In this document: positions 20-35,734 of the stretch, in pieces
How positions within the stretch are numbered: the first letter of the stretch is position 1
Layout: every line of letters begins with the position of its first letter
DNA from: an uncultured Aquimarina sp.
GTDB lineage: Bacteria > Bacteroidota > Bacteroidia > Flavobacteriales > Flavobacteriaceae
DNA: 64,000 nt
Reading direction: 5' to 3'
NCBI RefSeq assembly: GCF_947492405.1
Contig: NZ_CANLMP010000002.1
Location: 62,001-126,000, forward strand
Translations under genes and position numbers: made by a program
The notes under the pieces: model-generated
Databases searched by the model: none
The model's input: only the letters and a program-made list of their open reading frames with translations
Told to the model about the DNA's origin: nothing

Positions 20-1078
20 ATGATGAAAACCGTTCTACTAATAGAAGATGATACTGTACTTAGAGAAAACACTGCCGAACTTCTGGAGCTTTCGGACTAT
101 AATGTGATTACTTCTCCTAATGGTAAACTAGGTATTACGAAGGCAAAAGAGCAAAACCCGGATATTATTGTATGTGACATCATGATGCCAGAAATTGATG
201 GTTATGGAGTTTTGGAAGCCTTATCGCATGATTTAAGCACAAATCAAATACCGTTTATTTTCTTATCTGCAAAAACCGAACATAAAGAAATACGAAAAGG
301 AATGGATTTAGGTGCAGATGATTATCTAACCAAACCTTTTGATGAAGACGAACTACTAAGTGCTATAGAAAGCCGTTTGGCAAAAGCTCAGATCATTTCT
401 AAAATATTAAAAGAACAATCCCAAGAACCTAATCAGGATTCAGAAGATGGTCTAAGAAACTTACATGAACTCAAAAACTTTTTTGATGATTATGGTACTA
501 TTTCTCAATATAAAAAAGGCGAATCTATTTTTAAAGAAGGTGATCATTCTAATACCATTTATCTTATCCTAAAAGGTGTTGTAAAAACACACAAAATGGA
601 CATAAATGGTAAGGAACTTATTACGGCATTGTTTAAAGAAGATGATTTTTTAGGTTTTACCTCATTTATGGATAATACACCTTATCAGGAATCAGCCACG
701 GCAGTAGAAGAAACGGAACTTGCTGGTGTATCCAAAATGGATTTAAAAGACATATTAGAAAAAAGCAAAAATATTTCTTTAGAACTCATGGAATTGCTCA
801 GTGATAATCTTTCTGAAATAAAAGAACAATTATTACAAATGGCATATAGCTCTGTACGAAAAAAGACGGCACAAACCATTTTACAATTTGCTCAGATATT
901 AAATAAAAAACCAGAAGAGAGTATTAAAATATCCAGAAACGATCTAGCTAGCGTTGCCGGTATCGCCACAGAAAGTCTAATCCGCACATTATCTACCTTT
1001 AAAAAAGACGGACTTATAGAAATTGAAGGACGTAACATTAAAATTTTGGATCTACGGAGACTTCAACTAGTAGAATAA
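20..1078 (+). CDS. Response regulator receiver fused to Crp/Fnr-type regulator
   Basis: Transcription factor of 352 aa joining a CheY-like receiver domain (residues 4-120) to a cyclic-nucleotide-binding-type domain (about 160-265) and a Crp winged helix (about 280-350). The acidic pocket E9/D10/D11, phospho-acceptor D53 in VCDIMMPE and the KPF lysine are visible. The recognition helix reads ATESLIRTLSTFKK, keeping the Glu and Arg that read TGA half-sites in FNR/CRP. No FNR-style cysteine cluster is present, so input is probably phosphorylation, not an Fe-S cluster; the partner kinase is not in the window. It lies directly upstream of a Usp gene and hemN and is one candidate binder of the TGA-N6-TCA boxes. 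The start could be either of two adjacent ATGs. Confidence 0.9.
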   Translation: MMKTVLLIEDDTVLRENTAELLELSDYNVITSPNGKLGITKAKEQNPDIIVCDIMMPEIDGYGVLEALSHDLSTNQIPFIFLSAKTEHKEIRKGMDLGADDYLTKPFDEDELLSAIESRLAKAQIISKILKEQSQEPNQDSEDGLRNLHELKNFFDDYGTISQYKKGESIFKEGDHSNTIYLILKGVVKTHKMDINGKELITALFKEDDFLGFTSFMDNTPYQESATAVEETELAGVSKMDLKDILEKSKNISLELMELLSDNLSEIKEQLLQMAYSSVRKKTAQTILQFAQILNKKPEESIKISRNDLASVAGIATESLIRTLSTFKKDGLIEIEGRNIKILDLRRLQLVE

Positions 1079-2014: not shown

Positions 2015-3379
2015 ATGAATGCTAATTTAGTAGATAAATATAATGTTCCTGGACCCAGGTACACCAGTTATCCTACAGTTCCATATTGGGACAATGATAC
2101 CTTTTCATTAAAACACTGGACTCGATCCGTTAAAAAGTCTTTTACACAAAGTAATGACTCGGACGGAATCAGTTTATACATTCACTTACCTTTTTGTGAA
2201 AGCATGTGTACTTTTTGCGGCTGCAATAAGCGAATTACCAAAAAACATAATGTAGAAATACCATATATCAATTCCCTTTTAAAAGAATGGCAATTATATC
2301 TGAATCTACTCGATTCTAAACCAAAGATCAAAGAATTACATTTGGGTGGCGGAACCCCTACGTTCTTCTCTCCGGAAAACTTGGAATACTTAATCAAAGG
2401 GTTATTTTGGTCTGCTAAATCTGCTTCAGCATGTGAATTTAGTTTTGAAGGACATCCAAACAATACAACTCGAGAACATCTACAGGCTTTATATGATGTA
2501 GGTTTTAGAAGAGTAAGTTTTGGAGTACAGGATTATAATGAAATCGTTCAGAAAGCAATTCATCGCGTTCAACCATTCGAGAATGTAAAATATGTTACTG
2601 AGGTAGCTAGAAAAATCGGTTATACTTCTATAGGTCACGACATCATTTTTGGTCTACCTTTTCAGACAGAAGAAGCTGTTATTCATACGATCCGTAAGAC
2701 CAAAGAACTTTTACCGGATCGACTGGCTTTTTATAGTTATGCGCATGTTCCATGGCAAAAAGGTAATGGACAACGTGGATTTAATGAATCAGACCTTCCT
2801 AGCGGAGAACAAAAACGAAGACAATATGAAATAGGTAAAGAACTATTATCTAAAGTCGGCTACGAAGAAATAGGGATGGATCATTTCGCTCTAAAAAGTG
2901 ACGCTCTATATCAATCCATGGAGAATAAAAGCTTACATCGCAATTTTATGGGCTACACGGTTTCTAAAACTAAAATGATGATCGGTTTAGGCGTATCTTC
3001 TATCAGTGATAGCTGGTATGGTTTTGCTCAAAATGTAAAAGGCTTAGAAGAATACCAAAATTTAGTCAATGATGGAATCATTCCGGTATACAGAGGTCAT
3101 ATGCTAACTCAGCAAGATGAAGTTATTAGACAACATATATTAAATCTAATGTGTCATTTTAAAACGGATTGGAGTAAAAACCTGCTTCACTTTGATAAAT
3201 TAGCAGATGTATCGATGCGTTTAAAGGAAATGGAGAAAGATGGATTGGTAGAAATTGCCAGCCACGGCATTAAAGTTACTAAAAAAGGACGACCATTTGT
3301 TCGGAATATCTGTATGGCTTTTGATTTAAGGTTACAACATAATAAACCCGAAACTCAATTGTTTTCTATGACTGTCTAA
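2015..3379 (+). CDS. hemN: Oxygen-independent coproporphyrinogen III oxidase
   Basis: Radical-SAM enzyme that decarboxylates coproporphyrinogen III to protoporphyrinogen IX without oxygen, a step of haem synthesis. The 454-aa length is normal for HemN. The N-terminus has YNVPGPRYTSYPT, and the [4Fe-4S] motif C-x3-C-x2-C is at C61/C65/C68 followed by C70, as in true HemN and unlike HemW. LHLGGGTPTF and the HemN C-terminal domain (about 370-440) are also present. It lies downstream of usp, under the FNR-type box at 1090, next to the cbb3 genes whose haems it would help supply. Confidence 0.95.
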   Translation: MNANLVDKYNVPGPRYTSYPTVPYWDNDTFSLKHWTRSVKKSFTQSNDSDGISLYIHLPFCESMCTFCGCNKRITKKHNVEIPYINSLLKEWQLYLNLLDSKPKIKELHLGGGTPTFFSPENLEYLIKGLFWSAKSASACEFSFEGHPNNTTREHLQALYDVGFRRVSFGVQDYNEIVQKAIHRVQPFENVKYVTEVARKIGYTSIGHDIIFGLPFQTEEAVIHTIRKTKELLPDRLAFYSYAHVPWQKGNGQRGFNESDLPSGEQKRRQYEIGKELLSKVGYEEIGMDHFALKSDALYQSMENKSLHRNFMGYTVSKTKMMIGLGVSSISDSWYGFAQNVKGLEEYQNLVNDGIIPVYRGHMLTQQDEVIRQHILNLMCHFKTDWSKNLLHFDKLADVSMRLKEMEKDGLVEIASHGIKVTKKGRPFVRNICMAFDLRLQHNKPETQLFSMTV

Positions 3380-7523: not shown

Positions 7524-9716
7524 TTATTCTGAACTCACGGTTTCGTTTTTAACCTTTATATCAGTTCCTAATCGCTGTATATAAGCAATCAAGGCGATTA
7601 CTTCTCTATCTCTCATTTCGGTAAAATCCAATCCATTTTCTTTTGCATATTTTTTATCTGCTTCATAGGTTTTAGCAAAATCAGGATCATCATATAGGTT
7701 TTTCTCTATTTGTGTAGCCTGTTCGTTCATCCATTTTTGAGCTTTGGCAATTTCTTCTGGTGTATAAGGAACTCCAAGTGTAACCATGGCTTCCATTTTG
7801 GATTCGGTATCGGATCGATCTAATTTATTTTTAAGTAACCACTTATAGCTCGGCATAATCGAACCTGACGAAGTACTTTGCGGATCATAAAAATGATTCA
7901 AATGCCAATTGTCAGAGTATTTACCTCCTATACGCATCAGATCAGGTCCGGTACGTTTACTTCCCCAAAGGAAAGGATGGTCGTATACATATTCGCCAGC
8001 CTTAGAGTATTCTCCGTATCGTTCTACTTCACTACGAAAAGGCCTGATCATTTGCGAGTGACAAGACACGCAACTTTCTCTGATATAGAGATCTCTACCT
8101 TCTAATTCTAATGGCGTATATGGTTTAACACTGGTAATGGTTGGTATATTAGAATCTACCATCAATGTTGGAACGATTTGCACTGCACCACCAATAAGGA
8201 TTGCAATAGTCGCAAAAATGGTCAACTTCACTGGTCTTCTTTCTAACCAAGTATGGTATCCTTCTTTTGCTGTTCTATGTTTCGTTACTTTAGTTAATGG
8301 AGCAGCTTCTGCTAATTCATCAGTAACCGTAGCTCCAGCTCTAATGGTTTTAATCACGTTGTACAGCATAATAAACATCCCGAAGATGAACATACTACCG
8401 CCGATTGCTCTCATCCAATACATTGGAATAATTTCGTTTACAGTTTCTAAGAAGTTACCATATACTAAGCTTCCGTCTGGATTAAATTGTTTCCACATAG
8501 AAGCTTGTACAAATCCTGCTACATACATGGGTAATGCATACATAATGATACCCAATGTACCGATCCAGAAATGTGCGTTTGCTAATCCTGTAGACCATAA
8601 TTTGGTTTTAAATAATTTCGGAATTAACCAATATGCCATCCCAAAGGTGAAGAAACCATTCCAGGCTAAAGCTCCTACGTGAACGTGCGCAATAACCCAA
8701 TCACTAAAATGTGCAATCGCATTTACATTTTTTAAGGAAAGCATAGGCCCTTCAAACGTTGCCATACCATATCCTGTAATCGCTACAACCATAAATTTAA
8801 GCACAGGATCTGTACGCACTTTATCCCAGGCACCACGCAACGTTAATAATCCGTTGATCATACCACCCCAAGAAGGTGCTATCAGCATAATCGAGAAAGC
8901 TACTCCCAAATTTTGTGCCCAATCCGGTAAGGAAGAATATAACAAGTGATGTGGACCTGCCCAGATATAGATAAATATCAAGGACCAAAAGTGAACAATA
9001 GATAATCGATAAGAATATACCGGTCTATTTGCTGCTTTTGGAACAAAATAATACATCAATCCTAAGAACGGAGTCGTTAGGAAAAATGCTACTGCATTAT
9101 GCCCATACCACCATTGTACTAAAGCATCCTGAACACCTGCGTATACTGAATAACTTTTTAGCGCACTTACTGGTAATGCCAAACTATTAAAAATGTGCAG
9201 CACAGCAACCGTTACTACCGTAGCCAGATAAAACCAAATTGCTACATATAGGTGGCGTTGTCTTCGTTTAAGAATGGTACCAATCAGGTTCCAACCAAAT
9301 ACCACCCAAATAACTGCGATGGCGATATCAAAAGGCCATTCTAACTCTGCATATTCTTTAGAACTTGTGTATCCCAGCGGCAACGTAATGGCTGCTCCTA
9401 CGATGATCAACTGCCAACACCAAAAATTAATAGTACTAAGTGTATCATTAAACATTCGCGTTTTTAGCAATCGTTGTGTAGAATAATACACTCCGGCAAA
9501 TATGGCATTCCCTACAAAAGCGAAAATTACCGCATTGGTATGTAACGGACGTAATCGCCCAAAACTCAACCACGAGATACCATCGGTAAGATTAGGGAAT
9601 AAAAACATAAATGCCAGCAGTAATCCGACTGACATCCCTACAATACCCCAAAGGAGTGTGGCATACAAGAATTTTTTTACGATTTTATTATCATAATAGA
9701 ATTGTTCCATTTTCAT
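7524..9716 (-). CDS. ccoNO: Fused cbb3 cytochrome c oxidase subunits I and II
   Basis: Catalytic core of the high-affinity cbb3 terminal oxidase. The first ~480 residues are a 12-helix CcoN haem-copper subunit with conserved histidines in [36 protein letters not shown] and [11 protein letters not shown]. The last ~240 residues are CcoO, with haem c motif [12 protein letters not shown] near residue 549. I place the start at [10 protein letters not shown] (9716), 1 nt after the ccoS stop. The frame runs 38 codons further upstream but that part overlaps ccoS and looks non-coding. N-O fusion is familiar in Bacteroidota. Confidence 0.95.
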
Positions 9717-9717
9717 A

Positions 9718-9912
9718 TTATACTTGATTGTTATTAGCGGGTACTGAAGATTTTTCTTTGGATTCTTTGACCAGTTCATCGTCAAAAAGCATTCTGATAG
9801 ATGGTGTATAGGTATCATCATATTGCCCATTCTTTACGGAAAGAATAAAAGCCACAAAAAACACAATGGCTACAACGATACTGATGGTTAGCAAAACATA
9901 AATAACACCCAT
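9718..9912 (-). CDS. ccoS: cbb3-type oxidase assembly protein CcoS
   Basis: Small membrane protein of 64 aa with one N-terminal helix (residues 3-26) and the CcoS signature [21 protein letters not shown]. CcoS is needed to insert haem and copper into the oxidase. It is first in the operon here; ccoI, usually adjacent, lies 6 kb away across inserted cargo. Confidence 0.9.
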
Positions 9913-27849: not shown

Positions 27850-28834
27850 CGCTAAGGATTTTGAAATCCCTTTTCTAGAAAAAGCAAACAAGGATGTATA
27901 TCAGATCAAGTATATCCCTGAAAGACTTACTTCCGAAACAGCCATGCTTGCTTTAGGGTTTAATGTTGTATCGATTTTTTCGTCAGATGATGCTTCATCT
28001 AAGGTATTGGAACTACTAAAAGACTTTGGTGTTAAGTATATCACATTGCGTTCTGCAGGTTATGACAACATACATCTAAAAACTGCTCAAAAACTAGGGA
28101 TCAAAGTAGCAAATGTACCAGAATACTCCCCTAATGCTATTGCAGAACATGCAGTGGCCCTATTATTAGCATTGAATCGTAAACTGGTTTTATCTAATGA
28201 ACAAGTAACTTCTTACAATTTTTCTCTAAGCGATCTTGTAGGATTTGACCTTAATAATAAAACAGTTGGAATCATTGGAACAGGCAAAATCGGAAAGGTC
28301 ATCGCTAAAATAATGCTTGGATTCGGGTGTAAGGTTATAGCACAGGATATTAATGCAGACAAAGGTTTTGCAAAACAATATGATATCGAGTATGTGACAT
28401 TACCAAATTTGTGTGAACAATCAGATATTATTATGCTAAGTGTACCTCTTACTTCAGAAACTCATTATATGATTGATGCTGATCTCATTCAGCTAATGAA
28501 ACGAGAGGTATTTATCATCAATATTGCCAGAGGAGCCGTTGTGAATACTTCGGAAATTGTAGAAGCGCTAAAATGGAATAGAATTACCGCTTACGGAATT
28601 GATGTTTATGAATATGAACAGAGTCTATTTTTCTATGATCGTTCCAAAGACAAACCAAATGACACATTATTACAACAATTAATCGATTTACCTAATGTTC
28701 TTATTACACCTCATCAAGCTTTTGCAACCAAAGAAGCCTTGACTAATATTGCAGAAACCACCTTTTATAATATTGACTGCTGGCAACAAAATAGAACTCC
28801 CGAAAATGAACTTTCTATGGAATTAGTGCGGTAA
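27830..28834 (+). CDS. ldhA: D-lactate dehydrogenase (2-hydroxyacid dehydrogenase family)
   Basis: NAD-dependent enzyme of 334 aa that reduces pyruvate to D-lactate. It has the substrate Arg in TLRSAGYDN, the Rossmann motif GIIGTGKIGK, the DVYEYEQSLFFYD segment typical of LdhA, and the catalytic His in ITPHQAF. I choose ATG 27830 (MKILIYSAKDFE), six codons inside the open frame. Lactate formation fits the low-oxygen theme. It overlaps the preceding lipoprotein gene by 20 nt and, tail to tail, the YeeE gene by 12 nt. Confidence 0.85.
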   Translation: MKILIYSAKDFEIPFLEKANKDVYQIKYIPERLTSETAMLALGFNVVSIFSSDDASSKVLELLKDFGVKYITLRSAGYDNIHLKTAQKLGIKVANVPEYSPNAIAEHAVALLLALNRKLVLSNEQVTSYNFSLSDLVGFDLNNKTVGIIGTGKIGKVIAKIMLGFGCKVIAQDINADKGFAKQYDIEYVTLPNLCEQSDIIMLSVPLTSETHYMIDADLIQLMKREVFIINIARGAVVNTSEIVEALKWNRITAYGIDVYEYEQSLFFYDRSKDKPNDTLLQQLIDLPNVLITPHQAFATKEALTNIAETTFYNIDCWQQNRTPENELSMELVR

Positions 28835-29236
28835 TTTATTTTTCAGTAATCCATAGATAAAAGTACCTACTATTGAGGCTAAAATTACAATAAGAATCGG
28901 CAAATATCCTGCGCCTGCCAATACAAACATTGGACCTGGACAAGCTCCTGCCAATGCCCAACCTAATCCAAAAATAATTCCTCCTAAGATATAACGGCTA
29001 AAGTTTTTTTCTTTTGGAGCGATTACAATCTTCTCTCCATAAACCGATTTCATTTTAAATCTTTTAATCAATTGAATAACGATAATTCCAAGTCCTACAG
29101 CAGATCCAATAATTCCATACATATGAAAAGATGCGAATTGAAACATTTCATAAATCCTGAACCAAGAAGCTGCTTCAGATTTAAATAAAACAATTCCGAA
29201 AAAAACACCAATAACTAAATAGATAATTGTACGCAT
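28823..29236 (-). CDS. YeeE/YedE-type sulfur transporter, second half (DUF6691)
   Basis: Membrane protein of 137 aa with four hydrophobic segments, containing GLGWALAGACPGPMFVLAGAGY, the Cys-containing G-A-C-P-G motif of the thiosulfate/sulfur transporter family. With the gene at 29240 it makes a two-gene YeeE/YedE unit, in which each half supplies one inverted repeat. It likely moves thiosulfate or a related sulfur compound. Confidence 0.82.
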   Translation of the reverse strand: MRTIIYLVIGVFFGIVLFKSEAASWFRIYEMFQFASFHMYGIIGSAVGLGIIVIQLIKRFKMKSVYGEKIVIAPKEKNFSRYILGGIIFGLGWALAGACPGPMFVLAGAGYLPILIVILASIVGTFIYGLLKNKLPH

Positions 29237-29239
29237 TTT

Positions 29240-29797
29240 TTAAAATATTAAAGGGAATATTAAATGAACCATCGCTAAACCACCAATAAAAAATCCAACA
29301 ACAGCAAAAAGAGATGGCAACTGTAAATTACTCAAACCTGAAATCGCATGACCAGAGGTACAACCTCCTGCATAACGAGCACCAAAACCTACCAATAATC
29401 CACCTACAATAAGGAATATTAAGCCTTTTGGGTTCGTAAAAACATCTTCAGAAAATAGCATCTCTGGCATATACGCATCGCCTGCACTAGTAAAACCTTT
29501 AGTATGAAGATCGTTAACAGTTTCTGGATTAAGATTCACTGCAATATCTTTTGATAAATAGTTTTCAGCGATAAAACCTCCTAAAACAACACCTAAAACC
29601 ACAACAAGATTCCAGCGTTGTGATTTCCAATCAAATCTAAAAAAATCAGTAGTTTTTCCAGCTCCACAAATAGTGCACATCGTCCTTAAGTTAGAAGACA
29701 TACCTAGTTTTTTTCCGATCATTAACAACATAAACATTACTAAAGTTATTAATGGTCCTGAAACATACCAAGGCCAAGGTTCATATATCCAATTCAT
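29240..29797 (-). CDS. YeeE/YedE-type sulfur transporter, first half
   Basis: Membrane protein of 185 aa with five hydrophobic segments. The signature GARYAGGCTSGHAISGLSNLQ carries the conserved Cys on the transport path. The adjacent CTICGAGKTTDFFRF segment is typical of the Bacteroidota two-gene form. It starts behind a GTAAC-N4-GTTAC box and is followed 3 nt later by its partner. Confidence 0.85.
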   Translation of the reverse strand: MNWIYEPWPWYVSGPLITLVMFMLLMIGKKLGMSSNLRTMCTICGAGKTTDFFRFDWKSQRWNLVVVLGVVLGGFIAENYLSKDIAVNLNPETVNDLHTKGFTSAGDAYMPEMLFSEDVFTNPKGLIFLIVGGLLVGFGARYAGGCTSGHAISGLSNLQLPSLFAVVGFFIGGLAMVHLIFPLIF

Positions 29798-29815: not shown

Positions 29816-29859
29816 TAAAGAACCTGTATTTTTCAGAAGAAGTAAGTAACTTTTGTTAC
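29816..29859 (-). promoter_or_regulatory. GTAAC-type box upstream of the yeeE pair
   Basis: GTAACTTTTGTTAC at 29846-29859. At the position where the other three boxes have a -7 element, this one has only GTTCTTTA (29823 down to 29816), keeping TTTA, so the promoter match is weak although the palindrome is clear. Confidence 0.5.
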
Positions 29860-29915
29860 ACTCAGCATATTATGCTATATAAAAAATGTGATTATAAATG
29901 GTAATGTTAAAAAAC

Positions 29916-30119
29916 CTATTTAACCTTACAGGTATTTAACCCGACAATCGAGTATAAAGGACAAAAACTAACAAAACTGGTAAGTGCAAATATCACAGAA
30001 AGTCCTAAAAGCACATAACCCAACGTACCTTGTATAACTCCTGTAAAGTACAATGTACCAATCACAACGGCTACTACTATTCTTATAATGCGGTCTAAAC
30101 CGCCCATATTCTTTTTCAT
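29916..30119 (-). CDS. DUF2892 (YgaP-like membrane) protein
   Basis: Membrane protein of 67 aa with two helices. It has the family pattern N-x-G-x-x-DR-x-IR at the start (NMGGLDRIIRIV) and FCPLYSIVGLNTCKV at the end. Such domains accompany rhodanese genes and persulfide detoxification clusters. Two cysteines at the end are conserved in the family. Confidence 0.85.
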   Translation of the reverse strand: MKKNMGGLDRIIRIVVAVVIGTLYFTGVIQGTLGYVLLGLSVIFALTSFVSFCPLYSIVGLNTCKVK

Positions 30120-30135
30120 ATACTTATATTTTATG

Positions 30136-30228
30136 TTAAAAAAATTCTATAATTAGCACTACTCCAGCCACAATACCCGAACATATAACACAAACAATCA
30201 GTAATTTAAATCCTTTATGTATACGCAT
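30136..30228 (-). CDS. Possible 30-aa single-pass membrane peptide
   Basis: A 30-codon frame encoding MRIHKGFKLL followed by a hydrophobic stretch of about 19 residues (IVCVICSGIVAGVVLIIEF). It lies 16 nt before the DUF2892 gene on the same strand, inside the predicted transcript from the GTAAC box at 30394. Translation is unproven. Confidence 0.45.
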   Translation of the reverse strand: MRIHKGFKLLIVCVICSGIVAGVVLIIEFF

Positions 30229-30363
30229 ACATTATTTTGTTTTTAGGTTTTATCCATCGATACATATCAAACAGCTAACAAATAAGTATCTTGAAATAAA
30301 TTAACAATTGTTTCTCATAAAAGAGTTGAGTATCATTTTTGACTTTCTCAAATTAGCTTGAAA

Positions 30364-30407
30364 CAAATTTATTTAGGAGAATCAACAAAAGATGTGACAA
30401 TTGTTAC
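30364..30407 (-). promoter_or_regulatory. GTAAC-type box and -7 element upstream of the DUF2892 unit
   Basis: GTGACAATTGTTAC at 30394-30407 and, on the minus strand, perfect TAAATTTG from 30371 to 30364. The geometry equals that of the boxes at 33843 and 34722. The same box would not suit the plus-strand methyltransferase, because its -7 position falls inside that gene. Confidence 0.65.
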
Positions 30408-30423
30408 AACTAAGATTGTTTTT

Positions 30424-31029
30424 ATGATGCATACCGAAAAGCTAAGAAATGAACTAGGAAATATAGATATCTATATATTAGATCAACTATTAAAAGAGCG
30501 CTATTCACAAAATGATAAAATTCTGGATGCCGGTTGCGGAAGTGGTAGAAATATACATTGGTTTTATAAAAATAGATTTAATGTATATGCGGTAGACAAA
30601 GAAATTGAACAGATCGAATACTTGAAACTTGTATATCCGGACTGGAGCGATCAGTTTTGTAGTGCTTCTTTAGAACAATTACCCTACAATGATACTTTTT
30701 TTGATCATATTATCTGTAGTGCAGTGTTACATTTTGCTACAAGCACGAATCACTTTAGAACTATGTTTTCAGAACTTATACGTGTATTAAAACCTACAGG
30801 AAGTTTATTTATAAGAATGACTTCTGATATTGGAATTGAAAATAAAGTAACTCATCTAAAAGAAGGTGTTTATAGATTAGGTGACGAGTCTGATCGATTT
30901 TTACTGACTAAAGATTTGCTATCTCTTATAATGGATGAGCATCAATTATCATTTTTGGAGCCTTTAAAATCTACTAATGTTCATGACCTTAGGTCTATGT
31001 CTACTTTAGTACTTCAGAAGAATGGTTAA
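30424..31029 (+). CDS. Class I SAM-dependent methyltransferase
   Basis: Protein of 201 aa with motif I ILDAGCGSGRN, then VYAVDKEIEQIEY, LEQLPYNDTFFDHIIC and LIRVLKPTGSLFIRM, the order of a Methyltransf_11/25 domain. I choose the ATG pair at 30424/30427; a longer frame opens with TTG at 30358 but its extra 22 residues are unlike the family. Substrate unknown. It sits within the sulfur island, so a thiol or chalcogen acceptor is conceivable but unproven. Confidence 0.8.
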   Translation: MMHTEKLRNELGNIDIYILDQLLKERYSQNDKILDAGCGSGRNIHWFYKNRFNVYAVDKEIEQIEYLKLVYPDWSDQFCSASLEQLPYNDTFFDHIICSAVLHFATSTNHFRTMFSELIRVLKPTGSLFIRMTSDIGIENKVTHLKEGVYRLGDESDRFLLTKDLLSLIMDEHQLSFLEPLKSTNVHDLRSMSTLVLQKNG

Positions 31030-31167
31030 ATAAGATTAATACCATTTCTCACTTAAAATTACCCGCTAAAATTTACTCTTTTTCGTTGATGCTTCAAAAT
31101 AAAATTTAATCATAGCTAAGGCTATGCTTGCACTTTCTTTTTTGCCTAACCAAAAAATAGCTGTATT

Positions 31168-31842
31168 TTATTTGTGTAATTTTAAATCAGAACTGGTATA
31201 ACCTTTATCAATCAGTTCAATAACACCTTGTCTTAAAAGTATAAAGCCTTCTTGTTCTAGTTTTTTGAGTAATCGGGATATCACTTCTCTAGAAGAGCCT
31301 AAATCATAAGCGATATGTTGGTGTGTAGTATTTAGTGTATTACGACCTTTTAGCTTAGCCTCTTTTTTTAGATATTCTAATAGCCTTATATCCTTATTAG
31401 AAAATGTTAGTATTTCTATGACATTTAATAATTCTTCGAATTTAAGATTAAAAAGATCATAAATAAATTCGTTCCACTTGGGATATTTTTTTGCGATGGC
31501 CAGTGCTTTATCTGCTGGGATAATTACTACTTCAGAATCTTCTTCGATAACTGCCTTTACCTTACTTGTTTCATTCTTTATTAAAGTGGTTACAGACATC
31601 ACACAACTTTCTCCAGGTTTTATATAATATAATAAAACTTCATTTCCATTAGCTTGTTCTTCTTTAAAGACTTTTGCTAGCCCCGAAATAAGTAATGGAA
31701 TTACCTTTATATACGATCCTTGTTTTAAAATTATTGTTCCAGCGTCAAATGTATGAATACTACTAATCGCAACAAGTTCTGCTTTTAATGCTGGCATTGT
31801 TGCCAACTTTGGGAAATACGTATCTAGCGCTTTTGAGATCAA
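31168..31842 (-). CDS. Crp/Fnr family transcription regulator
   Basis: Regulator of 224 aa with a cyclic-nucleotide-binding-like domain (about 20-130) and a Crp winged helix with recognition helix DLGSSREVISRLLKKLE. The single Cys in GESCVMSV could be a redox or sulfur sensor; no Fe-S cysteine set is present. It is the last gene of the MBL-rhodanese operon and the best local candidate to bind the GTAAC-N4-GTTAC boxes. Confidence 0.9.
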   Translation of the reverse strand: MISKALDTYFPKLATMPALKAELVAISSIHTFDAGTIILKQGSYIKVIPLLISGLAKVFKEEQANGNEVLLYYIKPGESCVMSVTTLIKNETSKVKAVIEEDSEVVIIPADKALAIAKKYPKWNEFIYDLFNLKFEELLNVIEILTFSNKDIRLLEYLKKEAKLKGRNTLNTTHQHIAYDLGSSREVISRLLKKLEQEGFILLRQGVIELIDKGYTSSDLKLHK

Positions 31843-31891
31843 TAGGAACTATTTTTTACTAATTTAATCAATAATTTATCTCTATCTCAGA

Positions 31892-32335
31892 CTATCTTTT
31901 TGGGTTCTCATTCCAGGCTTTATATCCTCCTTTAAAATCATATATTTTTTTAAAACCTAAAGTAACTAGCAACTTAGCTGCTCGGTGACTTCTCCAACCA
32001 GAATAACAATAGATATACACAGGTTTTTCTTTATCTAATTTCTGAAAATCTAGAATAAATTTTTCTTTGTCCGCAACACTAATATTAATTGCATCATCAA
32101 TATATCCAGCATTATACTCTTTAAGAGTTCGAATATCCACAAGCTGAACATCTTTATGTATTACTTTTTCATTTATCGTATGAATATCTACAATGATAAT
32201 TTTATCATTCTCTATTGTAGTATTGGATTTTTCATTTCCAGAAATTTGTTGAGAAAAAGCACCGGAAAAACTAAATAATAAAAGAACTAAACACAGAATA
32301 CATTTTATTAATTTGGAATTTACTAGGTATATCAT
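31892..32335 (-). CDS. Secreted rhodanese-like protein
   Basis: Protein of 147 aa with an N-terminal signal peptide (residues 1-29, ending GAFSQ) and one rhodanese domain. The active-site loop CYSGWRSHR carries the catalytic Cys at about residue 110, and RTLKEYNAGYIDDAINI is the typical second motif. It probably handles sulfane sulfur in the periplasm. It follows the MBL-rhodanese gene by 3 nt. Confidence 0.88.
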   Translation of the reverse strand: MIYLVNSKLIKCILCLVLLLFSFSGAFSQQISGNEKSNTTIENDKIIIVDIHTINEKVIHKDVQLVDIRTLKEYNAGYIDDAINISVADKEKFILDFQKLDKEKPVYIYCYSGWRSHRAAKLLVTLGFKKIYDFKGGYKAWNENPKR

Positions 32336-32338
32336 ATT

Positions 32339-33751
32339 TTATTTTAATGTACTTGGGCATACATAGGCCGTAGTTTCTATTCCAGCTTCTTTCATTGCAG
32401 AAAAACCACCTGCAACATCAATAAGATTATGTATACCTCTACTTTTTAATATAGATGCCGCAATTACAGATCTATATCCACCAGCACAGTGTATATAGAA
32501 TGATTTACCTTCTGGGAAATCGTTCATATAATCATTGATAAAATCCAGTGGTGAGTTATTAGCCGTATCCAGATGTTCTGCAACAAATTCACTTTCTTTT
32601 CTTACATCAAAAACTGCTGTCTCTTCTGTATCAAGTTTATTTTTAAGTTCCTTTGCTGTTATTGATGATATTGTATCATACTCTTTCCCTGCGTTTTTCC
32701 AGGCTTCTATTCCTCCTTTTAGATATCCTAGTGTTTTATCAAATCCTACACGAGATAATCTGGTAATTGTTTCTTCCTCTTTACCTTCTGGAGTTACCAA
32801 TAAAATAGGCTGTTCTACATCAGCAATCAAAGCACCTACCCAGGGAGCAAAACCTCCTTGGATTCCAATAAATATAGATCTGGGAATATGTCCTTTTATG
32901 TACTCACTTTGATGTCTTACATCCAATACAATCGCGCCTGTTTCATTAGCCAATATTTCGAATTCTTCCGGTGATAATGGTTTAGTTCCTCTTTCTAGGA
33001 CTTCGTTGATATCTTCATACCCTTCTTTATTCATCTTCACATTTAAAGGGAAATACTGTGGAGGTGGTAATAAACCTTCTGTCACTTCTTTTACAAATTC
33101 TTCTTTAGTCATATCAGCACGTAACGCATAATTCATTCGCTTCTGGTTTCCTAAAGTGTCTACGGTTTCTTTCATCATATTTTTACCACAAGCAGAACCT
33201 GCTCCGTGCGCTGGATATACGATTACCTCATCGGCCAAAGGCATAATTTTATTCCTCAAACTGTCGAACAATGTTTCAGCTAGTTCTTCCTGTGTCATAT
33301 GAGCAGCTTTTTGCGCCAAATCAGGGCGTCCTACATCACCTAAAAACAATGTATCTCCACTAAAAATAGCGTGATCTTTACCATTTTTATCTCTTAGCAA
33401 ATAGGTGGTACTTTCCATCGTATGACCTGGCGTATGTAGTGCTATTATTGTAAGATCTCCTACGATAAACTCCTGTCCATCTGTTGCAATTGTAGCTTCA
33501 AAAGATGGATTAGCATTTGGTCCATAAATAATCTCTGCGCCAGTTTCTTTAGCCAGTGTTACATGACCACTTACAAAATCAGCATGAAAATGTGTTTCGA
33601 AAATATATTTGATTTTCGCTCCATCATTCTTAGTTCTTTCTATATATGGCTTTACTTCTCTCAGAGGATCTATAATCGCCACCTCTCCCGCACTTTCTAT
33701 ATAATAAGCGCCTTGTGCAAGACATCCTGTATATATTTGTTCTATCTTCAT
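32339..33751 (-). CDS. MBL-fold persulfide dioxygenase/rhodanese fusion
   Basis: Cytoplasmic protein of 470 aa. The first ~240 residues are an ETHE1-like metallo-beta-lactamase domain with HFHADFVSGH at 54-63, HTPGHT and SGDTLFLGDVGRPD. Two rhodanese domains follow. The first has no catalytic Cys (loop VTPEGKEEET), the second has CAGGYRS and looks active. The fusion would oxidise glutathione-like persulfide to sulfite and transfer sulfane sulfur. It starts downstream of a GTAAC box. Confidence 0.92.
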   Translation of the reverse strand: MKIEQIYTGCLAQGAYYIESAGEVAIIDPLREVKPYIERTKNDGAKIKYIFETHFHADFVSGHVTLAKETGAEIIYGPNANPSFEATIATDGQEFIVGDLTIIALHTPGHTMESTTYLLRDKNGKDHAIFSGDTLFLGDVGRPDLAQKAAHMTQEELAETLFDSLRNKIMPLADEVIVYPAHGAGSACGKNMMKETVDTLGNQKRMNYALRADMTKEEFVKEVTEGLLPPPQYFPLNVKMNKEGYEDINEVLERGTKPLSPEEFEILANETGAIVLDVRHQSEYIKGHIPRSIFIGIQGGFAPWVGALIADVEQPILLVTPEGKEEETITRLSRVGFDKTLGYLKGGIEAWKNAGKEYDTISSITAKELKNKLDTEETAVFDVRKESEFVAEHLDTANNSPLDFINDYMNDFPEGKSFYIHCAGGYRSVIAASILKSRGIHNLIDVAGGFSAMKEAGIETTAYVCPSTLK

Positions 33752-33812
33752 CTGTTTTATTTTCTATTGTACTTCTCATAAATGGAAGTCCACTGTTTCT
33801 ATTATTGAGCTC

Positions 33813-33856
33813 CAAAAATACGACTCCTATTATCTTTTTACAGTAACAATTGTTAC
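33813..33856 (-). promoter_or_regulatory. GTAAC-type box and -7 element upstream of the MBL-rhodanese operon
   Basis: Perfect palindrome GTAACAATTGTTAC at 33843-33856 and a perfect minus-strand -7 element TATTTTTG from 33820 to 33813. Box centre to -7 start is 29.5 nt, the same as for the TGA-N6-TCA boxes. Confidence 0.72.
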
Positions 33857-33879
33857 AAAATACAAAATCAAAATTAAGG

Positions 33880-34680
33880 TTATGTCAATTCCTTGATAAG
33901 TATATAAATCCCCATCCCTAAAACAAACCAACCGAATCCTTTTTTTAGTTTTTCGCCTTCTATAAAATTAGACAGGTACATTCCTATAAAAATTCCGATA
34001 ATAGAAATTCCTGTAAATACTATTAGAAAACTCCAATCAATAGCTAAATTTCCTATATCTCCTAAAAATCCAATTAATGACTTAATTGCAATAATTAATA
34101 ATGATGTTGCAACTGCTTTTTTCATGGGTAATCTTGCGAATAAAACCAATGCCGGAATTATTAAAAACCCGCCTCCTGCTCCAACAATTCCGGTTAACGT
34201 TCCTACTACAATACCTTCTATTACAATCAATGGATAATTGTAGGATACTGTCTCTTCTTTTTCTGTTGTTTCTTTTCTATTTTTTATCATAGAAATAGAA
34301 GCCATTAACATGATGATTGCAAAAAATGCCATGATCCCAATATCTTTGGTAATGGTAAAATCAACTATGGAAAAAAGTTCGTTGGGTATTATAGGAACTA
34401 AAAATTTTCTCGTTAAATACACCGCAATAAAAGCAGGAATAGAAAATATAATGGCAGTTCTGAAGCTAATCAATCCTTTTCTTAGGTTGCTAACTGCTCC
34501 AACTAAGGCTGAAGATCCTACAACAAATAATGAATACGCGGTGGCAGTAACAGGATTGATATGCATTAGGTACACAAAAACAGGTACTGTAAGTATAGAG
34601 CCACCACCACCGATTAAACCTAATACAATCCCTATGGTCAATGCTCCAAAATATCCTAGAACTTCTGTTACTTCCATCAA
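33880..34680 (-). CDS. Sulfite exporter TauE/SafE family permease
   Basis: Membrane protein of 266 aa with about eight helices in two repeats, each opening with a glycine-rich turn (GLIGGGGSILTVPVFVYL and GIVGAGGGFLIIPALVL). Members export sulfite or organosulfonates. Placed after a persulfide dioxygenase that would yield sulfite, export of sulfite is the natural reading. Start is either of two adjacent ATGs. Confidence 0.88.
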   Translation of the reverse strand: MMEVTEVLGYFGALTIGIVLGLIGGGGSILTVPVFVYLMHINPVTATAYSLFVVGSSALVGAVSNLRKGLISFRTAIIFSIPAFIAVYLTRKFLVPIIPNELFSIVDFTITKDIGIMAFFAIIMLMASISMIKNRKETTEKEETVSYNYPLIVIEGIVVGTLTGIVGAGGGFLIIPALVLFARLPMKKAVATSLLIIAIKSLIGFLGDIGNLAIDWSFLIVFTGISIIGIFIGMYLSNFIEGEKLKKGFGWFVLGMGIYILIKELT

Positions 34681-34691
34681 TTATTTTTTGG

Positions 34692-34735
34692 TAAAAATAA
34701 TCTCAGGTTAGGGTGGTCACAGTAACATTGGTTAC
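34692..34735 (-). promoter_or_regulatory. GTAAC-type box and -7 element upstream of tauE
   Basis: GTAACATTGGTTAC at 34722-34735 and minus-strand TATTTTTA from 34699 to 34692, with the same box-to--7 distance as the sites at 33843 and 30394. Confidence 0.68.
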
Positions 34736-35101: not shown

Positions 35102-35734
35102 TCAAAGATTTATAATTTCAATACTATTGCGGTTTAGTTTTATCTTTCCTTCTACTTCTAATTTTTTAAGTAATCTGGATATCACCACCCGAGAAGTGTG
35201 TAAGTCATAGGCAATTTCCTGATGGGTATTATTCACTACATTTTCATTATTAACTTTGGTTTTATCCTTTAGATATTTCAGTAATCGTTCATCCATTTTT
35301 AGAAAAGCAATGCTATCAATGGTTTCAATAGCTTCCATAAGTCGTTTATGGTAACTTTCGAAAACAAAATTTCTCCACGATTTATACTTGGCGGTCCATT
35401 CTTCCATTTTTCCGACAGGAATCATAATCAATTTAGCATCCGTTTCTGCAATTGCTTTGATCTCACTTTTATGATGACCGATACAACACGACAATGTCAT
35501 CGCACAGGTATCTCCTCTTTCCAGAAAGTAAAGTAACAGTTCATCACCATCATGATCTTCTCTTAAAATTTTAATCGCCCCACTAATAATAAGCGGCATC
35601 GATTTGATATAACTTCCTGGTTTTATGAGTTCAATACCTTCAGAAACTTCCTTAAACATAGCAACGTTATTAATTTCTTCTAATAGCTCATTTTCAAAAA
35701 GATGCCCGTAACTATTCTTAAGTTCTTGAATCAT
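35102..35734 (-). CDS. Crp/Fnr family transcription regulator
   Basis: Regulator of 210 aa related to the one at 31168. The sensor domain contains two cysteines in DTCAMTLSCCIGHHKSE; the DNA-binding helix is DLHTSRVVISRLLKKLE. Val replaces the Glu normally found after Arg in SREVISR, so its base preference may differ. It is last in the usp-cls-patatin unit, 8 nt after the patatin gene. Confidence 0.9.
   Translation of the reverse strand: MIQELKNSYGHLFENELLEEINNVAMFKEVSEGIELIKPGSYIKSMPLIISGAIKILREDHDGDELLLYFLERGDTCAMTLSCCIGHHKSEIKAIAETDAKLIMIPVGKMEEWTAKYKSWRNFVFESYHKRLMEAIETIDSIAFLKMDERLLKYLKDKTKVNNENVVNNTHQEIAYDLHTSRVVISRLLKKLEVEGKIKLNRNSIEIINL

Follow-up and report, generated by a model that had tools for sequence, protein, structure and literature searches.

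Mutants of CAP with altered specificity at Glu181 have been made in the laboratory, Glu72 and Arg82 are cAMP-pocket residues of the same protein (CRP), FNR carries an N-terminal cysteine set for a 4Fe-4S cluster, and promoters of Bacteroidota have a -7 element, TAnnTTTG, and a -33 element. E. coli CRP reads TGTGA-N6-TCACA, its Glu181 contacting the C of a G:C pair and its Arg185 the G (as described in PMC11253593), and NtcA reads GTAN8TAC, a site centred near -41.5 at canonical activated promoters (as described in PMC3898017). The subject here is a set of GTAAC-N4-GTTAC boxes in the sulfur island of a 64,000 nucleotide (nt) stretch from an uncultured Aquimarina sp. (contig NZ_CANLMP010000002.1), together with two Crp/Fnr-family paralogs encoded beside them, CrpA and CrpB; the whole stretch is called the window and all coordinates are in its numbering. 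The boxes are predicted to be operators of a Crp/Fnr class II activator, most likely CrpB, with sulfide/persulfide targets, a reading to which we give a probability of about 75%.

Both proteins belong to the Crp/Fnr superfamily, with PF00027 and PF13545 above their gathering cut-offs. Against the CRP model NF008732 (cut-off 266 bits) CrpB scores 53.9 bits and CrpA 37.7, and against the NtcA model TIGR03697 (cut-off 244.95) CrpB scores 41.1. The FNR cysteine set is absent, the only cysteines being Cys77, Cys83 and Cys84 in the CrpB of the window and Cys80 in its CrpA. CrpB resembles CRP in fold (Foldseek E 3.3e-15, TM 0.78 for 1i5z), in half-site frame and in keeping the equivalents of Arg180 and Arg185, but Val replaces Glu181. 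NtcA, as aligned, also has Val at that place, and GTAAC-N4-GTTAC, if bound by CrpB as predicted, falls in the GTAN8TAC frame given for NtcA; NtcA differs in coming from another phylum, with about 20% identity in the fold match, and CrpB differs from it in its predicted sulfur-gene targets and in having cysteines at the effector-pocket region. The best match of CrpB, in both sequence (E 2.4e-32) and fold (1.8e-16), is 3dv8, a Crp/Fnr-family structure from Eubacterium rectale, which has cysteines at the places of Cys77 and Cys83 but Glu at the 181 place. In one profile alignment CRP Glu72 lies opposite a gap in CrpB and Arg82 opposite a position that is not Arg, so cAMP binding by CrpB looks unlikely. 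Some of the described sulfane-sulfur sensors (BigR, SoxR/sHdrR of the ArsR type, the MarR family, OxyR, PerR and AdpA) control sulfur-oxidation genes through cysteines, as is proposed here for CrpB; none belongs to the Crp/Fnr family, as CrpB does, and several act as repressors, as far as the accounts consulted describe them.

Boxes and promoter spacing

Exact GTAAC-N4-GTTAC palindromes start at 29846, 33843 and 34722. A sequence-only reading of the window had counted a fourth at 30394, which proves to be GTGACAATTGTTAC (GTGAC-N4-GTTAC), one mismatch away and not literally that palindrome. The genes it had placed behind the four boxes (the yeeE pair, DUF2892, the MBL-rhodanese operon and tauE) are as named, and Pfam agrees. 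With the -7 element scored by its six fixed letters and distance taken from the box centre to the start of that element, TAnnTTTG lies at 29.5 nt from three of the four boxes, just as had been noticed, and was not found at that distance from the 29846 box in the window. The boxes and elements are as follows.

29846 to 29859, minus strand: exact GTAAC-N4-GTTAC box of the YeeE/DUF6691 pair
30364 to 30371, minus strand: -7 element TAAATTTG of the DUF2892 promoter, 6/6 at 29.5 nt
30394 to 30407, minus strand: hybrid box of DUF2892, reading GTAAC-AATT-GTCAC towards DUF2892, the G half-site adjoining the -7 element
33813 to 33820, minus strand: -7 element TATTTTTG of the MBL-rhodanese promoter, 6/6 at 29.5 nt
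33843 to 33856, minus strand: exact box GTAACAATTGTTAC of MBL-rhodanese/rhodanese
34692 to 34699, minus strand: -7 element TATTTTTA of the tauE promoter, 5/6 at 29.5 nt
34722 to 34735, minus strand: exact box GTAACCAATGTTAC (minus strand) of tauE

The genes of the island itself, all identified by Pfam, are these.

28823 to 29236, minus strand: DUF6691/Sulf_transp partner of the YeeE half
29240 to 29797, minus strand: YeeE-type sulfur transport half (Sulf_transp)
29916 to 30119, minus strand: DUF2892 (YgaP-like membrane domain)
31168 to 31842, minus strand: CrpA, Crp/Fnr-family paralog, helix SREVISR, single Cys80
31892 to 32335, minus strand: single-domain rhodanese
32339 to 33751, minus strand: MBL-fold/two-rhodanese protein (Lactamase_B and Rhodanese), from its domain order presumably persulfide dioxygenase-like
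33880 to 34680, minus strand: TauE/SafE exporter
35102 to 35734, minus strand: CrpB, Crp/Fnr-family (cNMP_binding and HTH_Crp_2), helix SRVVISR, Cys77, Cys83 and Cys84

With up to one mismatch allowed the window holds seven boxes against 1.32 expected, a number reached in none of 100 shuffles; a first-order Markov sequence yields a mean of 0.025 exact palindromes per 64 kb, and three within 4.9 kb occurred in none of 1000 Markov simulations. The remaining one-mismatch matches (2585, 44779 and 62780) all lie inside long open reading frames (ORFs). In 41 sequences (loci L046-L085 and the window; 97 boxes, both strands read), 46 of the 48 complete TAnnTTTG elements that lay within about 70 nt of a box began at 29.5 nt. 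A set of 80 named loci, collected through CrpB and not through the box, and many of them from one genus, gave the same picture: 186 of 210 boxes had a -7 element of at least 5/6 at 29.5 nt on either side, and 76 of the 80 loci contained such a pair. At sites selected by box and -7 element, the base frequencies reveal a TG on the proximal edge, and a -33 element does not stand out clearly. A fixed spacing of this kind is what class II activation would be expected to show, and it would put the transcription start near 41 nt from the box centre.

CrpB as predicted reader and the genes behind the boxes

The presence of box with -7 element follows that of CrpB. Among 37 Aquimarina genomes, with CrpB called at 200 bits or more, the pair occurred in 29/29 with CrpB and in 2/8 without it (105 matches in all, against 5 for a reversed control). 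Across 395 genomes of the phylum the share with a box fell with the CrpB score, from 18/19 at 300 bits or more to 14/20 at 230-300 and 8/37 at 189-230, whilst of those without a CrpB match at 1e-55 it was 12/319, close to the rate of a control pattern (17/395). G089 is the sole high scorer in which no match was found, and its regulator is adjoined by a box whose -7 element fits in at least 5/6 letters. CrpB is thus, on sequence grounds, the most likely reader of the GTAAC boxes.

Gene specificity was counted in the 80 named loci as a box with its -7 element no further than 300 nt upstream of the gene; because starts are uncertain, the stretch could also take in as much as 60 nt of the ORF, and the counts omit genes near locus ends or under the score threshold. 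The sequence-only reading had let its proposal depend on the boxes being conserved upstream of orthologous sulfur genes in related genomes, and so they are, before TauE in 44/50 cases and MBL-rhodanese in 57/68. DUF2892 (11/13), DUF983 (8/10), a FAD enzyme here labelled SQR-like (6/10; Pfam gives Pyr_redox_2 and weaker FAD-type matches only), SulP (1/3), the single rhodanese (8/34) and YeeE (21/43, or 34/43 for the box alone) also have it. None was found before patatin (0/25), PLD (0/22), USP (0/22), DUF6691 (0/41) or CrpA (0/14), and a box of reversed letters preceded none of the tested families. Within the genus, 21 of the 30 loci read, among them that of the own genome, have an exact box no more than 300 nt upstream of the MBL-rhodanese ortholog, and boxes also precede TauE and YeeE orthologs; some genomes have a second island in which boxes stand before genes for an SQR-like FAD enzyme, a SulP transporter, DUF983 and CrpB.

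Several observations weigh against so simple an assignment. Two genomes without CrpB have the box with its -7 element (G016 with two, the half-complete G020 with one), four of the 80 CrpB loci lack a box in the stretch examined (L127, L143, L162 and L184), the CrpB gene itself has a box with -7 element in 9/80 loci only, and 9/30 genus MBL-rhodanese orthologs have no upstream box (of these nine, a contig end cuts one off and another is masked). The boxes themselves, the constancy of their spacing, their conservation, the genes they precede and their occurrence together with CrpB are established, and the box set is a conserved and widely shared regulon.

Two further targets lie elsewhere. At L095:4713-4726 a box with a 6/6 -7 element precedes a cytochrome bd subunit I gene (Pfam), with similar promoter strings in G002, G004, G018, G026 and G029, and at L104:4888-4901 a box with a 5/6 element precedes a sulfite-oxidase-type molybdoenzyme gene (Pfam). 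Both would fit a response to sulfide and sulfite, and the former may be a sulfide-tolerant respiration branch of the regulon. ORFs of similar size to that in L104 come after boxes in L094, L096 and L105. One CrpB locus, L180, is labelled Chlorobiota and has CrpB, TauE, MBL-rhodanese, CrpA and boxes, with flavobacterial-like proteins, reflecting a binning error or a recent transfer.

The signal

Cys77, Cys83 and Cys84 of CrpB are invariant in 15/15 aligned genus orthologs and present in 79/80 named loci. In an AlphaFold2 model of CrpB (pLDDT 88.1, pTM 0.77), which matches CRP-fold structures, the helix 79-86, which in the alignment corresponds to the pocket for the cAMP phosphate in CRP, contains Cys83 and Cys84 and is immediately preceded by Cys77; the CrpA model was poor (pLDDT 70, 13 sequences) and was not used. 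These cysteines, taken with targets of the SQR-like, MBL-rhodanese and rhodanese kinds, make sulfane sulfur the most likely candidate for the CrpB signal. The literature on sulfane-sulfur sensors, covered mostly through its open-access part and so weak evidence on this point, names neither a Crp/Fnr-family persulfide sensor nor this box.

The boxes might instead answer a non-sulfur signal such as oxygen, redox or nitrogen status, the sulfur genes forming one branch only. This is doubtful but to be taken seriously, given that some boxes stand before a fatty-acid-hydroxylase-family gene (with -7 element in 3/10 of the named-locus copies, box alone in 5), DUF983 and the cytochrome bd gene, that Cys77 is invariant in 62 relatives, even those of the Glu type described below, and that 3dv8 shares two of the cysteines. 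It has to contend with a target list dominated by SQR-like, MBL-rhodanese, rhodanese, YeeE, TauE, SulP and sulfite-oxidase-type genes. As to the hydroxylase family, one GTAAC palindrome with a 5/6 -7 element lies before such a gene upstream of the window (C2:55683 of the own genome, L085:3684-3697), and boxes recur beside its relatives, being hybrid in L132, L133 and L146.

Activation or repression

In the preferred reading a CrpB homodimer would bind GTAAC-N4-GTTAC with its centre about 41 nt upstream of the transcription start, sit just over the -33 place and assist RNA polymerase at a -7 element of the Bacteroidota type before the SQR-like, MBL-rhodanese, rhodanese, TauE, YeeE and SulP genes; sulfane sulfur would act on Cys77, Cys83 and Cys84 at the site of the cAMP pocket of CRP. 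Both the position of the start and activation rather than repression are inferred. CrpB could alternatively repress from these boxes and be released by reactive sulfur in the manner of several sulfane-sulfur sensors of other families, since the box covers the -33 place and BigR, SoxR, PerR and MarR-type sensors are termed repressors in the accounts consulted. We regard this as unlikely, because sites of repressors require no fixed spacing and the 29.5 nt spacing, with a probable centre near -41, is that of class II activation (compare NtcA, as described in PMC3898017). The regulon would be that of a class II-type activator of the CRP family, with an NtcA-like operator turned to sulfur.

The hybrid box, helix residue and half-site base

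The place of CRP Glu181 is taken by Val183 in CrpB and Glu186 in CrpA according to the alignment. Val183 is invariant in the 15 aligned CrpB orthologs and Val is found in all 80 named loci, and Glu186, like Cys80, is invariant in the 13 aligned CrpA orthologs. CrpA was called at 377 bits or more, the next best score being 184, and is present in 15 of the genus genomes, namely G016 and the 14 that have the hybrid box. GTAAC-N4-GTCAC with its -7 element occurs as a single copy in each of these 14 of the 37 genomes, with no control matches.

Residue and base were compared over loci L046-L245 by taking the third base of both half-sites, written here as a pair of letters, in boxes with a -7 element; identical sites were dropped by letters only, and L046-L084 and L106-L185 partly repeat genomes. 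At 107 loci with Val-type proteins only, 194 sites comprised AA 178, AT 9, AG 4, TA 1, GT 1 and TG 1. Those with Glu-type only (35 loci, 19 sites) gave AG 14, GA 2, GG 1 and AA 2, that is 17/19 with a G, or 15/17 when L090 and L091, whose genomes have a Val protein or CrpB elsewhere, are set aside; both AA sites belong to G016. Loci with both types (26) had AA 44, AG 16, GA 6, AT 2 and GG 1, and the 31 with no regulator in view AA 27, GA 7, AT 1, AC 1 and AG 1. The latter class includes L186-L189 (GTGAC) and L190 (GTAAC), which had been chosen by an earlier box match with no regulator seen and do not count as Glu-only. A single locus, in which one protein has a gap at the helix place, was kept apart (AA 3, AG 1).

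A further 18 loci (L246-L263), added afterwards and chosen by regulator position, behaved similarly. All 14 of the Val type have GTAAC/GTTAC, with an extra GTAAC/GTCAC in L260 and an odd GTCAC site in L258; of the three of the Glu type, L251 and L262 have G half-sites and L263 has no box; and L259, with both types, has a pair of AA boxes, a GG box and a GTTAC/GTTAC site. Both types also occur in genome G238, the Val protein beside an AA box (L250) and the Glu protein beside a hybrid box (L251). In genus g2, GTGAC accounted for 6/7 matches in the five Glu-type genomes with any match, against 0/16 in five genomes of that genus with a Val-type protein; over 18 Val genomes the figure was 2/60. In Dokdonia (L133) the box is GTGAC-N4-GTCAC.

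Val at the Glu181 place is thus correlated with A:T at half-site position 3 (position 7 in CRP numbering) and Glu with G:C, the G:C pair being found mostly in the half-site nearer the promoter. A reading of G:C by Glu in CrpA, chiefly in that half-site, would explain the variant box at DUF2892. The correlation is subject to exceptions: Glu-type CrpA stands beside AA boxes at the DUF2892 place in both G016 and Aquimarina litoralis L124, 6 of the 194 Val-only sites have a G half-site, one of the two pattern matches in the Glu-type genome G190 is AA, and 13 further Glu-type g2 genomes have no match to the scanned pattern. A quick tree also requires only two Glu/Val changes, one of them forced by strong branches, so that the sites are by no means independent and the strong counts rest on few events. 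A single regulator for all four window boxes was considered and rejected, as the GTGAC of 30394 goes with CrpA (Glu) and the three GTAAC boxes with CrpB (Val).

It is quite unlikely that the two proteins read the same boxes and that the hybrid box is a site for a CrpA-CrpB heterodimer, a two-input gate on DUF2892. The idea draws on the distribution of the hybrid box, found in 14/14 genus genomes with both proteins and 0/23 others (0/15 having CrpB alone, 0/1 having CrpA alone and 0/7 lacking both), the genome with CrpA but no CrpB (G016) having at the DUF2892 place the symmetric GTAACAATTGTTAC. It is countered by A. litoralis, which has both proteins and a symmetric box, and by hybrid boxes being usual beside Glu-type regulators in genomes, such as those of L219, L220 and L226-L229, in which no Val-type relative was found, from which it follows that a homodimer suffices. 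That the palindromes are chance or a repeat can be dismissed, for although the own genome has 15 exact copies, three of them the window boxes, against 5 for the reversed control, and contig C8 has a regular series of 4, the idea is refuted by the way the boxes are conserved, spaced and tied to particular genes. In the C8 series (L012-L015), which may be part of a coding repeat, four copies of GTAACTGTAGTTAC stand 333 or 666 bases apart.

Tentatively, and with rather low confidence in the whole, CrpB may represent a Crp/Fnr branch that senses sulfane sulfur by three cysteines in the former cAMP pocket, CrpA and CrpB being kept on separate or partly shared promoters by Val or Glu against A or G, and DUF2892 receiving input from both, possibly through a heterodimer.

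The TGA-N6-TCA set and a third Crp-type protein

The spacing of the GTAAC boxes had been called identical to that of a set of TGA-N6-TCA sites, and this is borne out by 10 window readings of TGA-N6-TCA with a -7 element of at least 5/6 at 29.5 nt. The motif alone is not clearly above chance (33 in the window against 24.6, with 8 of 100 shuffles reaching 33). In genus loci without CrpA, 24 full -7 elements lie at 29.5 nt from TGA-N6-TCA, against at most three at any other spacing; loci with CrpA have two at 29.5 nt. Dependence of this set on CrpA or CrpB was rejected, since G021, in which neither was found, keeps it (one site of 6/6 and five of 5/6 at the same spacing).

Another Crp-type protein is encoded at the edge of the window.

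20 to 1078, plus strand: receiver-cNMP-HTH fusion (Pfam Response_reg, cNMP_binding and HTH_Crp_2)

The fusion is present at E 1e-100 or better in 30/37 genus genomes, including G021, and was not found at that level in G007, G008 and G034, all with CrpB. Its helix, ATESLIR, is without the Arg180 equivalent and keeps the Glu, a combination suited to a TGA half-site that lacks the outer G. Our guess is that the fusion is a better candidate reader of the TGA-N6-TCA set than CrpA or CrpB. Since G021 has both the set and the fusion without either paralog, the evidence points to three Crp-type proteins, not the two activators of the sequence-only reading; its pairing of local Crp-type proteins with distinct half-sites, in a conserved class II-like geometry, stands. 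Near the fusion lie genes for universal stress proteins, a radical SAM protein (2015-3379) and a COX1-FixO fusion oxidase (7524-9830).

The divergent methyltransferase

One gene of the island runs in the opposite direction.

30424 to 31029, plus strand: divergent methyltransferase (Pfam Methyltransf_11), its ATG 16 nt from the hybrid box

At this distance the hybrid box may also block or tune the methyltransferase gene. In the 80 named loci a box lies within 300 nt in 7/8 copies of the gene, with a facing -7 element in 0/8.

Significance

In Flavobacteriaceae and relatives the boxes mark out a sharply delimited sulfide/persulfide regulon for which a candidate regulator and candidate cysteines can be named, and the fixed spacing makes for simple target prediction in other Bacteroidota genomes. 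The Val/Glu pair would be a natural counterpart of the classic CRP specificity question, one residue against one base, posed in paralogs and in sister genomes.

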